64,000 bases of DNA from positions 1-64,000 of the forward strand of contig PKEA01000028.1 in assembly GCA_002862805.1 (NCBI GenBank). Reading direction: 5' to 3'. This document shows positions 17,625-24,123 of the stretch, one piece after another. The DNA is from Flavobacteriaceae bacterium. Lineage in GTDB: Bacteria; Bacteroidota; Bacteroidia; Flavobacteriales; Flavobacteriaceae. The number at the start of each line of letters is the position of its first letter. Position 1 is the first letter of the stretch. The notes below the pieces were generated by a model. The model was not told the origin of the DNA. It did no database searches and saw only the letters and a program-made list of their open reading frames with translations. A program made the position numbers and the translations under genes.

Positions 17625-19310
17625 TTATGTATTTTGTTTATTCAATATTTTTTGAATACTTAATGATAAAATAATCGTCAACAAAGCCCCAATAAAGTTC
17701 AACCATAAGAAACTTACAATATCTAGGTAGAAAATAAAAAATATAGTAAGTTGACTAACACAAGCGGCTATAAATATTGCTTTTCCTTTTACATATTTGA
17801 TGTAAAATCCAACTAAGAATATTCCTAAAACAGTCCCGTAAAAGATAGAACCAATAATATTAACTAGTTGAATTAGGTTTTCAAATAGCGAACTTATACA
17901 CGCAAAACCAATAGCAACTAATCCCCAAAATAAAGTAAAAAATTGAGTAGCATATACATAATGCTTATCAGACTTTGTATCATTATTTCGTTTGTAAATA
18001 TCAATTGTGGTTGTGGCTGCTAATGAGTTTAAACCCGAAGCACTTGACGACATTGCTGCACTAAAAATTACAGCTAATAAAAGTCCGAGTAATCCTTTTG
18101 GTAAATAGTTAATAATAAAGTACAGAAAAACATAATCTTTATCGTTAGTTTCTGAACTACTATCAACTTTACTAATTAACTCTTTAGCATCTTCTCTTAA
18201 TTCTTTTTCTTTCTGATTTAAAACAACTATTTGTTTTTTTAAAGTTGGATTATCAAACTCATTGTATTTGAATTGTTCAATATAAATTTGATTGACTACT
18301 TTTTTTTCTTCATTTATTACTTCTAATTTTTTCTCTAGTGCTTGATACGATTCTTTATACTCTGAGTTATTTATTTTGGTAACATTTGTTGGATTAAAAT
18401 GAAGTGGCGTGCTATTGAATTGAAAAAAAACAAAAACTAAAACTCCAGTTAATAAAATGAAAAATTGCATTGGAACTTTTAGAAAACCATTCATGATTAA
18501 TCCCATTTGGCTTTCTTTGATTGATTTTCCAGATAAATAGCGACCAACTTGAGATTGATCAGTTCCAAAATATGAAAGCATTAAGAAAAATCCTCCTGTA
18601 ATTCCGCTCCAAAATGTATAACGTGTTTCTGGATTATAAGAAAAATCTAAAATATCCATTTTACCATTCGCACCAGCAATATGCAACGCAGTTGTAAAAT
18701 CTAATTCAGGTGGAAGGTAATTTAGAATTAGAAAAAAGGTAATGAACATTCCACTAATAATGACAAACATTTGCTGTTTTTGCGTCATGTTTACTGCTTT
18801 TGTTCCACCGGTAACCGTGTAAACAATAACCAATAATCCTATAACAACGTTTAATAAGGTTAAATTCCATCCTAATAATGCCGATAGTATAATTGATGGC
18901 GCATAAATAGTTAAACCAGTTCCTAAACCTCGTTGAATAAGAAATAAAATAGCTGCTAATGAACGTGTTTTAACATCAAATCGTTGTTCTAAGTATTCAT
19001 AAGCAGTATATACTTTTAACTTGTGGTAAATGGGAATAAATGTATAAGCGATTACAACCATTGCTAGTGGCAATCCAAAATAAAACTGAACAAATCCCAT
19101 TCCGTCATGATATGCCTGACCAGGAGTAGATAAAAATGTAATGGCACTGGCTTGAGTTGCCATTACAGAAATTCCTACTGTATGCCAAGGTGTTTCGTTA
19201 TTGTCTAAGATATAATCTTTTACATTAGCACTTCCTTTAGTTTTATAAGCTCCATAGATTACAATAAAAAGTAGGGTAGATGATAAAACGATCCAATCTA
19301 AATATTCCAT
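17625..19310 (-). CDS. Sodium:solute symporter (SSS family) with coiled-coil insert
   Basis: A 561-residue inner-membrane symporter of the SSS family, about 13 hydrophobic helices, using the sodium gradient to import an unknown solute. Family segments include VMATQASAITFLSTPGQAYHDG, VYTVTGGTKAVNMTQKQQM, YFGTDQSQVGRYL and FSAAMSSSASGLNSLAATTT (the sodium-site region). Unusually, residues about 308-388 form a long charged, heptad-like stretch rich in E, K, L and Q, placed between two membrane helices. The gene starts directly after the stop of a 34-residue membrane micro-protein (TAA-ATG adjacent), which in turn follows a PIG-L deacetylase gene, so uptake and deacetylation are probably linked. 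Confidence 0.92.
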   Translation of the reverse strand: MEYLDWIVLSSTLLFIVIYGAYKTKGSANVKDYILDNNETPWHTVGISVMATQASAITFLSTPGQAYHDGMGFVQFYFGLPLAMVVIAYTFIPIYHKLKVYTAYEYLEQRFDVKTRSLAAILFLIQRGLGTGLTIYAPSIILSALLGWNLTLLNVVIGLLVIVYTVTGGTKAVNMTQKQQMFVIISGMFITFFLILNYLPPELDFTTALHIAGANGKMDILDFSYNPETRYTFWSGITGGFFLMLSYFGTDQSQVGRYLSGKSIKESQMGLIMNGFLKVPMQFFILLTGVLVFVFFQFNSTPLHFNPTNVTKINNSEYKESYQALEKKLEVINEEKKVVNQIYIEQFKYNEFDNPTLKKQIVVLNQKEKELREDAKELISKVDSSSETNDKDYVFLYFIINYLPKGLLGLLLAVIFSAAMSSSASGLNSLAATTTIDIYKRNNDTKSDKHYVYATQFFTLFWGLVAIGFACISSLFENLIQLVNIIGSIFYGTVLGIFLVGFYIKYVKGKAIFIAACVSQLTIFFIFYLDIVSFLWLNFIGALLTIILSLSIQKILNKQNT

Positions 19311-19415
19311 TTATGAGAAAATTTCCATTAATAAATAAAAAAATAAAATGTATAATGCATTTAAGAGTAAAACTAAACTATAGCTTTTCTTCCATTGATG
19401 TTTTTGTTTTTCCAT
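19311..19415 (-). CDS. 34-residue single-pass membrane micro-protein
   Basis: A short reading frame too small for usual gene calls. The protein starts MEKQKHQWKKSYSLVLLLNA and ends LYILFFYLLMEIFS: a basic polar N-terminus of about 10 residues, then one transmembrane helix at about 13-33. Its stop TAA directly abuts the symporter ATG, and its ATG lies just 6 bases beyond the stop of the deacetylase gene, so it is nested in a compact operon. Position and charge pattern (positive-inside) support a real gene rather than chance; a small accessory subunit of the symporter is a reasonable guess. Confidence 0.7.
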   Translation of the reverse strand: MEKQKHQWKKSYSLVLLLNALYILFFYLLMEIFS

Positions 19416-19421
19416 ATTTTT

Positions 19422-21866
19422 TTATTCTAATGCGATTATGTTTGCCAAAAGACGATAAGCTCCACTAACTCCTTCTGGAAGTTCTCTAAAAAAGCTTAAA
19501 CCTGTATAAATATAATTTCCTTTACCATATTTTGCAATAAGTAAAGCTCCTTTTTTATTAGATTCTCCATCATCATGAGAAGCTAAAATAGGAATAAATT
19601 CGTTACTCCAATCGGATGGATAATATAAACCTTGTTCTTGTACCCAATTTTTAAAATCTTCAATAGTGATTTTATTAGGTTTATTTAATACTTGATGATT
19701 TTTGCTTAAAAAAGTAACAGGCGCATTTTCATTGGTAACTCTATCTCTTGAAAGTTTTAATTCAAATGGTGCTATTTCATTGGTAACTAAGTTGTTAGTA
19801 GTGTTGTATTGAACAATTAAATTTCCACCATTTTCAACATAATCAAATAAAACTTTGTTCTTGTATTTCAATTCTTCAACAACATTAAAAGCTCTAATTC
19901 CAAGAATAACAGCATCAAATTTTTGTAAATTTTCTAGGGTTAATTCATTTGGATCTAAATAGGTAATATTAAAATCTAAATTTTCTAAATTTTTACCAAC
20001 TTCATCACCAGCACCCATTAAATAACCAATGTTTTTTCCTTTGGTTTGAATGTTTAAACGAACGATTTTTGCTTCTGAATTTTCAAGAATTGTTTGCTTT
20101 GGAATATGAGCATAATCAATTTGAACTAATTCTTTTGTAAACTCTTTACTGTTACTATTTGCAATAATATTCAACGTTGAAGTGATTTCTTTTTCAGAAG
20201 GTGTAATCGTAAAAACAACCGTTTGCTCTTCGTTTTTAGTAGTTATTGTAAACGGAATTTGTTTTGGTAAAATAGTCCAATTGTCATCCGCTTGAAGTGT
20301 TACAAAACCAGATACATTATCTTTGTGAGCTTTAATTTTTACTTTAAATGCTTTAGGTTGATTCGAATTAAAAATAGCAACTTTATTCATCGCTTCAGTA
20401 GTTACTTCTGGTAAAATTGTAAAAGGCATGAATGTTTCACCGTTTTCAGGCATGTTCTTTTTGTAGACTAAATTTTTTACAAATTCTATAATTTCTCCTT
20501 CAATTTCTAGTTTAAAAATAACGGGATATTGTAATTCTTCTTGAGGCAAAATACGAATGGATTTATTGCTCACAGAGTACATTCCTACAGTTGCTTTTTC
20601 CTTTAGCCAAAATAAATTGGAGTAATCATAATTGCTTGGAACATTTACTTTATCAATAGAAAAACTAAAGTTGGTATTGTTTTTTATACTTTCATTTTTT
20701 ACAATTTCATTCGTATTAAATACATTTACTGAAATTAATTTTACTTGAGTATTACTTCTATTTGTAGCTTCAATATTTATGGAAAAATTTTCTGATTTGG
20801 TAACCGATTCTTGATTACTAACCGCTTCCAAGTATAACCCGCTACAAGCTTCTATAATTGCTAATATTTGATTTTGTTTGATTGTTTTCCAATGATTGTC
20901 TTTTAAATTTGAAATTAATCGATATGCTTTTATAAGCTCAGGAATATGAACAGATGGATTATTAAAATTGAAATTTTCTTGCACTTTATTCAAAATGGCT
21001 CCAATTTCTTTTCCACCTTCAACACGATTCCAAGAAGTATCAATTCCTTCAAAAATATTTCCAGAAGTTGGCATTTCGCCTTTTAAAAGTTCTAAATATT
21101 CGGTTTCACTACCGCGAGAACCTGTTGTTCCAAAACCTTGACATTTATGCTGACTTCTGCTTAAAGCTGCAATTTCATAATTACTTAATCCTTTTGAAGC
21201 AAAATAAACATTGGCATCTATAGCAAGTAATTTAGATTTGTCGGCTTTATCAAATTTTTCTTGACTTCCGTAAAACCACCACGATGTGTTGAAGAAAACT
21301 CTTTTAGGTTTTGTTTTTAATACTTCATAAGCTTCTAGACTTAAAATTGCCGATGCGGTATGATGTCCGTGAGTTGTTCCCGGAGTTCTGTGATTAAATC
21401 GATTGATGATAATATCAGGTTGAAAGGTTTCAATAGTTTGAATAACATCTTCTAAAACCTCTTTTTTGTTCCAAATGGTAAACGTTTCATTTGGTTCTTT
21501 AGAATAACCAAAATCATTGGCTCTTGTAAAAAATTGCTTTCCACCGTCAATTCTTCTGGCAGCTAATAATTCTTGAGTTCGAATTGCCCCTAATTTTTCT
21601 CTTAATTCATTTCCAATTAAGTTTTGTCCGCCATCTCCTCTTGTTAAAGATAAATAAGCCGTTTCCGCATGATAATAATTAGAAAAATAAGAAATTAACT
21701 TAGTGTTTTCATCATCAGGATGTGCAGCAACGTATAGTACTTTACCAAGAAAATTAAGTTTTTCAATTTGGTGGTATATTTCGTTTGAATTTAACTTTTT
21801 TGGAGCTTGAGAAAAGCCATTAAATCCAATAAATAAGAGTAGAGTTAGAGTAATATTTTTAATCAT
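19422..21866 (-). CDS. Secreted PIG-L family deacetylase, large form
   Basis: An 814-residue exported zinc-dependent N-acetyl-sugar deacetylase of the PIG-L/LmbE family. I choose the start at 21866, not an in-frame ATG at 21935, because it begins a good signal peptide (MIKNITLTLLLFIGFNGFSQ) and the longer version reads through the terminator of the upstream gene. The metal site HPDDEN is at 49-54, the second histidine motif HGHH near 164-166. A beta-rich middle follows, then a C-terminal domain (KNIGYLMGAGDEVGKNL...FDAVILGIRAFNV...YVENGGNLIVQYNTT) like a class I glutamine amidotransferase fold. It probably frees an amine from an acetylated glycan or glycoconjugate before uptake by the adjacent symporter; the substrate is unknown. 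Confidence 0.88.
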   Translation of the reverse strand: MIKNITLTLLLFIGFNGFSQAPKKLNSNEIYHQIEKLNFLGKVLYVAAHPDDENTKLISYFSNYYHAETAYLSLTRGDGGQNLIGNELREKLGAIRTQELLAARRIDGGKQFFTRANDFGYSKEPNETFTIWNKKEVLEDVIQTIETFQPDIIINRFNHRTPGTTHGHHTASAILSLEAYEVLKTKPKRVFFNTSWWFYGSQEKFDKADKSKLLAIDANVYFASKGLSNYEIAALSRSQHKCQGFGTTGSRGSETEYLELLKGEMPTSGNIFEGIDTSWNRVEGGKEIGAILNKVQENFNFNNPSVHIPELIKAYRLISNLKDNHWKTIKQNQILAIIEACSGLYLEAVSNQESVTKSENFSINIEATNRSNTQVKLISVNVFNTNEIVKNESIKNNTNFSFSIDKVNVPSNYDYSNLFWLKEKATVGMYSVSNKSIRILPQEELQYPVIFKLEIEGEIIEFVKNLVYKKNMPENGETFMPFTILPEVTTEAMNKVAIFNSNQPKAFKVKIKAHKDNVSGFVTLQADDNWTILPKQIPFTITTKNEEQTVVFTITPSEKEITSTLNIIANSNSKEFTKELVQIDYAHIPKQTILENSEAKIVRLNIQTKGKNIGYLMGAGDEVGKNLENLDFNITYLDPNELTLENLQKFDAVILGIRAFNVVEELKYKNKVLFDYVENGGNLIVQYNTTNNLVTNEIAPFELKLSRDRVTNENAPVTFLSKNHQVLNKPNKITIEDFKNWVQEQGLYYPSDWSNEFIPILASHDDGESNKKGALLIAKYGKGNYIYTGLSFFRELPEGVSGAYRLLANIIALE

Positions 21867-23977: not shown

Positions 23978-24009
23978 TTTTATATTTTAATTTTCTTAAA
24001 GTCTATTTT

Positions 24010-24123
24010 CACTAATCACTAATCACTAATCACTAATCACTAATCACTAATCACTAATCACTAATCACTAATCACTAATCACTAATCACTAATCACTAAT
24101 CACTAATCACTAATCACTAATCA
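24010..24123. repeat. Heptamer tandem repeat (CACTAAT), about 16 copies
   Basis: A 114-base array of perfectly repeated CACTAAT (minus strand ATTAGTG) fills the gap between the ubiA-type gene and the KdsC-like gene. The TAG stop of the KdsC-like gene (24117-24119) and its last codons lie in the array. All copies look identical, so it is probably young and copy-number variable. Confidence 0.97.

Follow-up and report, generated by a model that had tools for sequence, protein, structure and literature searches.

A conserved single-helix microprotein encoded directly upstream of an SLC5-type sodium symporter in the Bacteroidota is a candidate accessory subunit

MAP17 (PDZK1IP1), the auxiliary subunit of human SGLT2, serves an SLC5 transporter with one membrane helix. 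According to PMC10803289, it contacts TM13 of SGLT2 and is believed to assist the transporter in folding and localising. The NCBIfam model NF045580, 'symporter small accessory protein', has 33 positions and describes hydrophobic proteins of ~33 residues named for a role as symporter accessory. DUF4212 (PF13937) is a small membrane protein whose gene lies directly upstream of an SSS gene. DUF3311 is encoded by a gene of unknown function located beside that of MctP, a member of the sodium:solute symporter family, and was lowered together with MctP in a regulator mutant, as stated in PMC9100948.

The small gene and its relation to known transporter partners

The window analysed here is a stretch of 64,000 nucleotides from a Flavobacteriaceae bacterium (contig PKEA01000028.1). 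On its minus strand a gene for a PIG-L family de-N-acetylase (19422..21866, 814 aa) is followed by 6 bases (19416..19421), by an ORF of 34 codons (19311..19415) and by the gene of an SSS/SLC5 sodium:solute symporter (17625..19310, 561 aa). The TAA stop codon of the small ORF (19313-19311) touches the ATG of the symporter gene (19310-19308) with zero gap, forming a TAA-ATG abutment at 19308..19313. The tight packing of a 34-codon gene between these two neighbours, pointed out in the initial annotation, was thus confirmed from the coordinates. The larger proteins were assigned by Pfam: the deacetylase matches PF02585 (E 4.2e-14; 53.6 bits, cut-off 28.2) and has, as judged by eye, an AHPDD motif and a signal-peptide-like N-terminus; the symporter matches PF00474 (E 1.4e-37) and the SSS fold, and sequence matches were found in the PDB. 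Elsewhere in the window there is a perfect tandem array (24009-24123) of the 7-base unit TCACTAA in 16.4 copies with 100% match; it is flanked on one side by the gene of a UbiA prenyltransferase and on the other by the 3' end of that of a HAD-type phosphatase.

The translation of the small ORF, MEKQKHQWKKSYSLVLLLNALYILFFYLLMEIFS, has a basic N-terminus and a single membrane helix spanning approximately residues 10-32 (10-32/33 in AlphaFold models). Among 274 aligned microproteins, 268 have the W and 271 the Y that follows four residues later. The conserved residues W8, Y12, V15, N19, I23, F26, M30 and F33 lie on one face of the helix, and the low-entropy positions repeat with a helical period of 100 degrees: over positions 10-35 none of 20,000 permutations was as strong, and over positions 13-34 the p value was 0.0008. 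A stripe of this kind indicates that one face of the helix is constrained, as it would be if it packed against a partner. Basic residues concentrate on the N side: K+R averages 2.36 over the 8 positions preceding the helix and 0.35 over the final 4. The count was higher on the N side in 228 of the 274 sequences and equal in 42, both comparisons using windows of unequal length. The N-terminus is therefore probably inside, as judged from this charge distribution.

The microprotein, a single-helix protein of about the length of the NF045580 model encoded beside an SSS gene, resembles the NF045580 proteins in kind only: the window protein and 26 relatives had no match to this model at E<=10 (the HMMER filters drop most matches above ~0.1). 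The window protein matched no Pfam model, DUF3311 included, and no NCBIfam model, and its relatives gave scattered weak matches to unrelated families alone. With DUF3311 it shares the position beside an SSS gene. MAP17 is longer than the microprotein, and it is eukaryotic.

The comparison with DUF4212 deserves separate treatment, since the two share a gene order. In the same genome, the gene of another SSS symporter is immediately preceded by that of a classical DUF4212 small subunit (L145, 2442-2702, minus strand), and this equal arrangement could suggest that the microprotein is a shortened relative of DUF4212 that kept the first helix only. In the best profile alignment W falls on W over the first DUF4212 helix. 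However, the profile comparison gave E 0.12 and two of six column shuffles scored higher, none of 27 family members scanned had a Pfam match to DUF4212, and the copy at L145 has 86 residues and two hydrophobic stretches (by eye), whereas the microprotein has 34 residues and one. Descent from DUF4212 thus appears improbable. Homology to the first DUF4212 helix was rejected because the profile score did not exceed that of shuffled columns, and membership in NF045580, DUF4212 or another Pfam or NCBIfam family was rejected because the window protein is unmatched. No copy of the microprotein family was seen by eye beside the three remaining SSS genes in this genome, one of which is the gene with DUF4212, and no paper on the microprotein gene was found in the open-licence text of PubMed Central. 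As far as Pfam, NCBIfam and the open-licence papers reach, the kind of protein is known from NF045580, DUF4212 and MAP17, and the family appears to be new.

Selection on the small gene and its spread across the Bacteroidota

Of 36 relatives from the same genus, 33 conserve the frame (E<=1e-4), so that the reading of the initial annotation passed the check on which it had been made to depend. The three genomes without a match at this threshold were G002, which had no symporter match at E<=1e-20, G020, whose sole SSS match is a distant paralogue with 27% identity, and G034, in which the symporter is cut short. In 32 of the 33 genomes with a match, the ORF immediately precedes the symporter; the remaining locus, L030, is near a contig end.

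Among the 33 aligned sequences (528 pairs) mean pN was 0.227 and mean pS 0.757, and differences at codon positions 1/2/3 were 0.309/0.187/0.478. The dN/dS ratio had a median of 0.284 and a maximum of 0.887, with no value >=1, in the 124 pairs with pS<0.65; it was restricted to these pairs and is rough, since the others are near synonymous saturation. The ORF is, on this sequence evidence, under purifying selection. The position was controlled for as well: a hydrophobic ATG ORF of 28-60 codons, ending between -20 and +8 of the start, precedes 58 of 80 symporter starts, whereas the remaining long ORFs of these loci have one before 2 of 174 starts.

Symporter orthologues (E<=1e-60) were found in 115 of 296 evenly drawn genomes of the phylum, and 80 of the resulting loci were examined. 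With an iterated profile, a homologous ORF was detected <=110 nt upstream of the symporter start in 68 of the 80. In another six the slot holds an ORF that has either diverged (L124-L128) or exceeds the length allowed by the filter (L114), and in the remaining six (L074, L105, L120, L121, L123 and L133) no microprotein was found beside the symporter. The encoded proteins have 32-54 residues, lengths that are approximate because start codons were chosen by rule.

A second set of 123 further loci, in which several genomes of the first set are repeated, gave the ORF in 112, in 86 of them with a 4-nt overlap. Among the 11 profile-negative loci L347 comes from the same genome as L114, and L352-L354 come from the same genomes as L123, L120 and L121; L370 and L371 carry a diverged ORF in the slot; and no homologue was seen in L254, L307, L308, L349 and L350, the slot of L254 being occupied by a different hydrophobic ORF. 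No fusion of the microprotein and symporter genes was found among the 123 loci. The microprotein was also present in all 80 loci of named relatives, mostly Flavobacterium and other Flavobacteriaceae, collected by a joined-query scan that favours such loci; judging by these relatives, the window itself probably derives from Flavobacterium. A weak match at C10 (E 0.0126) had no symporter nearby. In six loci (L120, L121, L123, L307, L308 and L074) the PIG-L gene almost runs into the symporter gene with no microprotein between; these are apparent losses, which could reveal compensation.

A chance ORF without a product, for which small size alone could be cited, is refuted by the conservation across families, and the same-genus matches, the profile loci, the dN/dS values, the slot control and the co-inheritance described below leave it practically no weight.

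Co-inheritance with the symporter and the link to the deacetylase

Presence of the two genes was compared in the 296 genomes, using E<=1e-60 for the symporter and E<=1e-5 with a 61-row profile for the microprotein (100 genomes; 104 at the looser E<=0.01). Both were present in 99 genomes, the symporter only in 16, the microprotein only in one, and neither in 180. Fisher's test gives p 3e-60, a value that is no true probability as the genomes are related. The single genome with the microprotein only (G085, locus L150) has a PIG-L gene, the microprotein gene and a symporter gene reduced to fragments, an apparent case of recent symporter loss.

Inspection of the 16 symporter-only genomes revealed an adjacent profile-matching ORF after all in G185, G330 and G346, an adjacent weakly matching ORF in G280 (E 0.003), and a diverged ORF in the slot in G139, G208, G224, G264, G272, G314 and G334; in G166 the symporter match is partial or cut short. 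Genome-scale profile searches did not find the microprotein in G170, G193 and G201. G219, which has PIG-L and the symporter, gave no match at E<=0.01 with the 61-row profile, and another search returned weak matches, the best (0.0053) with an internal stop. In G391, G430, G412, G491 and G502 the microprotein was not seen in the slot adjoining the symporter, the adjacent slot alone being covered. Because some symporters have no recognisable microprotein, the latter is not essential in every lineage. Across the Bacteroidota, the microprotein is inherited together with the symporter.

The spacing between the two genes is typically short. In the window the stop and start codons abut; in other loci the genes most often overlap by 4 nt (ATGA) or are separated by 1 or 3 bases. 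The overlap occurs in 32 of the 68 profile-positive phylum loci, and in 57 of the 68 the stop lies at most 12 bases ahead of the symporter start or at most 4 beyond it. Such junctions are typical of translational coupling, and could also be explained by a leader ORF acting in cis, translation of which delivers ribosomes to the symporter start while the peptide itself is idle. We consider this very unlikely: purifying selection acts at the amino-acid level, the conserved residues are confined to one helix face, the spacing reaches 88-95 nt in some loci, and intact copies exist far from the symporter. In the g74 genomes G084, G096, G112 and G157 a distance of 14.6-15.3 kb separates an intact microprotein gene from the symporter; in G331 it is 108 kb. 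Upstream of the microprotein gene in G084, G096 and G157 there is a WbqC-family gene (by Pfam in G084, by eye in the others), and no symporter match was found near it. In the related loci L129, L131 and L137 the order, as read by eye, is a WbqC-like gene, the microprotein and the symporter. Similarly, the gene before the microprotein in G331 resembles by eye the gene before the intact pair in G339. We conclude from these two resemblances that the pair became separated while the small gene stayed intact, and intact copies at such distances count against a pure cis leader.

The deacetylase was frequently found in the same neighbourhood: in the fetched stretch of 59 of the 80 phylum loci and, for the named loci, upstream in the same orientation in 72 of the 80. 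Moreover, three genomes of the same genus that have no symporter orthologue (G002, G020 and G115) also have no gene for this PIG-L. These observations would also fit a small membrane protein whose partner is the deacetylase or yet another protein, which it would serve as anchor, chaperone or sensor, merely sharing the operon of the symporter; the same three genomes are without the microprotein, too. However, the microprotein is retained beside the symporter where PIG-L was not found. Among the 21 phylum loci without PIG-L, 15 have the microprotein by profile, five a diverged ORF, and one (L105) no adjacent ORF; among the named loci, L178, L181, L182 and five others keep the microprotein beside the symporter without PIG-L. 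In L178 and L182 a gene resembling the MscS-like gene of the window stands directly before the microprotein. Conversely, in the g74 genomes the microprotein is beside the WbqC-family gene and PIG-L beside the symporter (L133). A partner other than the symporter is therefore unlikely, if somewhat less so than a leader ORF or a DUF4212 origin. The microprotein had been described as joining the deacetylase to the symporter, a picture that does not hold: it tracks the symporter.

The broader proposal of a three-part unit for deacetylation and import stands in part. It agrees with the frequency of PIG-L in both sets of loci and with its parallel absence in G002, G020 and G115, and is weakened by the 21 loci of 80 that have no PIG-L. 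In L133 and L135 (family f37) a nagB-like gene (PF01182 for L135) and a single-domain PIG-L gene adjoin the symporter, which hints that amino-sugar compounds are involved. Judging from gene content, it is thus plausible that the unit imports an amino-sugar product after deacetylation.

Symporter models and the proposed role of the microprotein

The symporter was modelled with AlphaFold in two read-through fusions, in which the natural stop codon of the microprotein was read as glycine; the forced one-residue link may hinder docking. The symporter part was predicted confidently (mean pLDDT 88.6 and 90.6). In both fusions the microprotein helix had pLDDT ~61-73 and remained unplaced; the underlying alignments contained 32 joined rows of 69 and 67 of 104, the deeper one being no better. 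Contacts from mean-field coevolution analysis were scattered (274 pairs, Neff 158 at 80% identity).

Structure comparison, for which the first of the two models was used, identified SiaT (5nva, 5nv9) as the closest fold, the best match being 5nva with Z 45.4 over 464 of 472 residues at 26% identity; the ranges of the model that align begin at residue 29 or later, within or beyond the microprotein helix. The model also matched the human SGLT1/2 chains from MAP17 complexes, with Z up to 38.0. Alignment with SGLT2 extends up to ~residue 550 only; because it ends there, the symporter is apparently a 13-helix SiaT-like form without TM13. A predicted helical hairpin of ~80 residues is inserted after TM7 (symporter residues ~307-382, model residues 342-417); it has no counterpart in SiaT, and the consensus of the alignment retains a recognisable part of it. 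By the topology of SLC5 proteins the hairpin would presumably face the periplasm, where we take PIG-L to act.

The site of MAP17 in SGLT2 is TM13, whereas the window symporter apparently ends before this helix, so the docking site would not be identical to that of MAP17. We infer that the microprotein may fill the place of TM13 or of the MAP17 site.

Taken together, the microprotein is probably a MAP17-like single-pass accessory subunit of the adjacent 13-helix SLC5-type sodium symporter, often accompanied by PIG-L. Translational coupling would ensure that it is produced along with the symporter, and the conserved face of its helix would pack against the symporter in the membrane. By analogy with MAP17 and SGLT2, it may stabilise the symporter or help its assembly. 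PIG-L, probably secreted, would act on an N-acetylated compound, trimming it before the symporter takes it up or in the course of uptake. The earlier suggestion of a small symporter subunit or assembly factor is thus the best reading of the sequence data, which show a conserved and selected gene for a predicted membrane protein, travelling with that of the symporter.

A more far-reaching version, which we put forward as a speculation with the odds against it, is that the Bacteroidota have a widespread SLC5 symporter made of two parts, the outermost helix being a separate product of ~32-54 residues that replaces TM13 (or MAP17) and is often linked to the symporter by the 4-nt overlap; the periplasmic PIG-L and the hairpin insert would then form a machine that deacetylates amino-sugar compounds and then imports them.

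If the microprotein is indeed a subunit, much of the phylum would possess a transporter component of ~34 residues for which neither Pfam nor NCBIfam has a model, and such symporters may resist expression or structure determination on their own for want of the microprotein. The role of MAP17 for human SGLT2 is still discussed, as PMC10803289 indicates, and the bacterial pair would provide a simple system for the roles of single-helix partners in SLC5 transporters.
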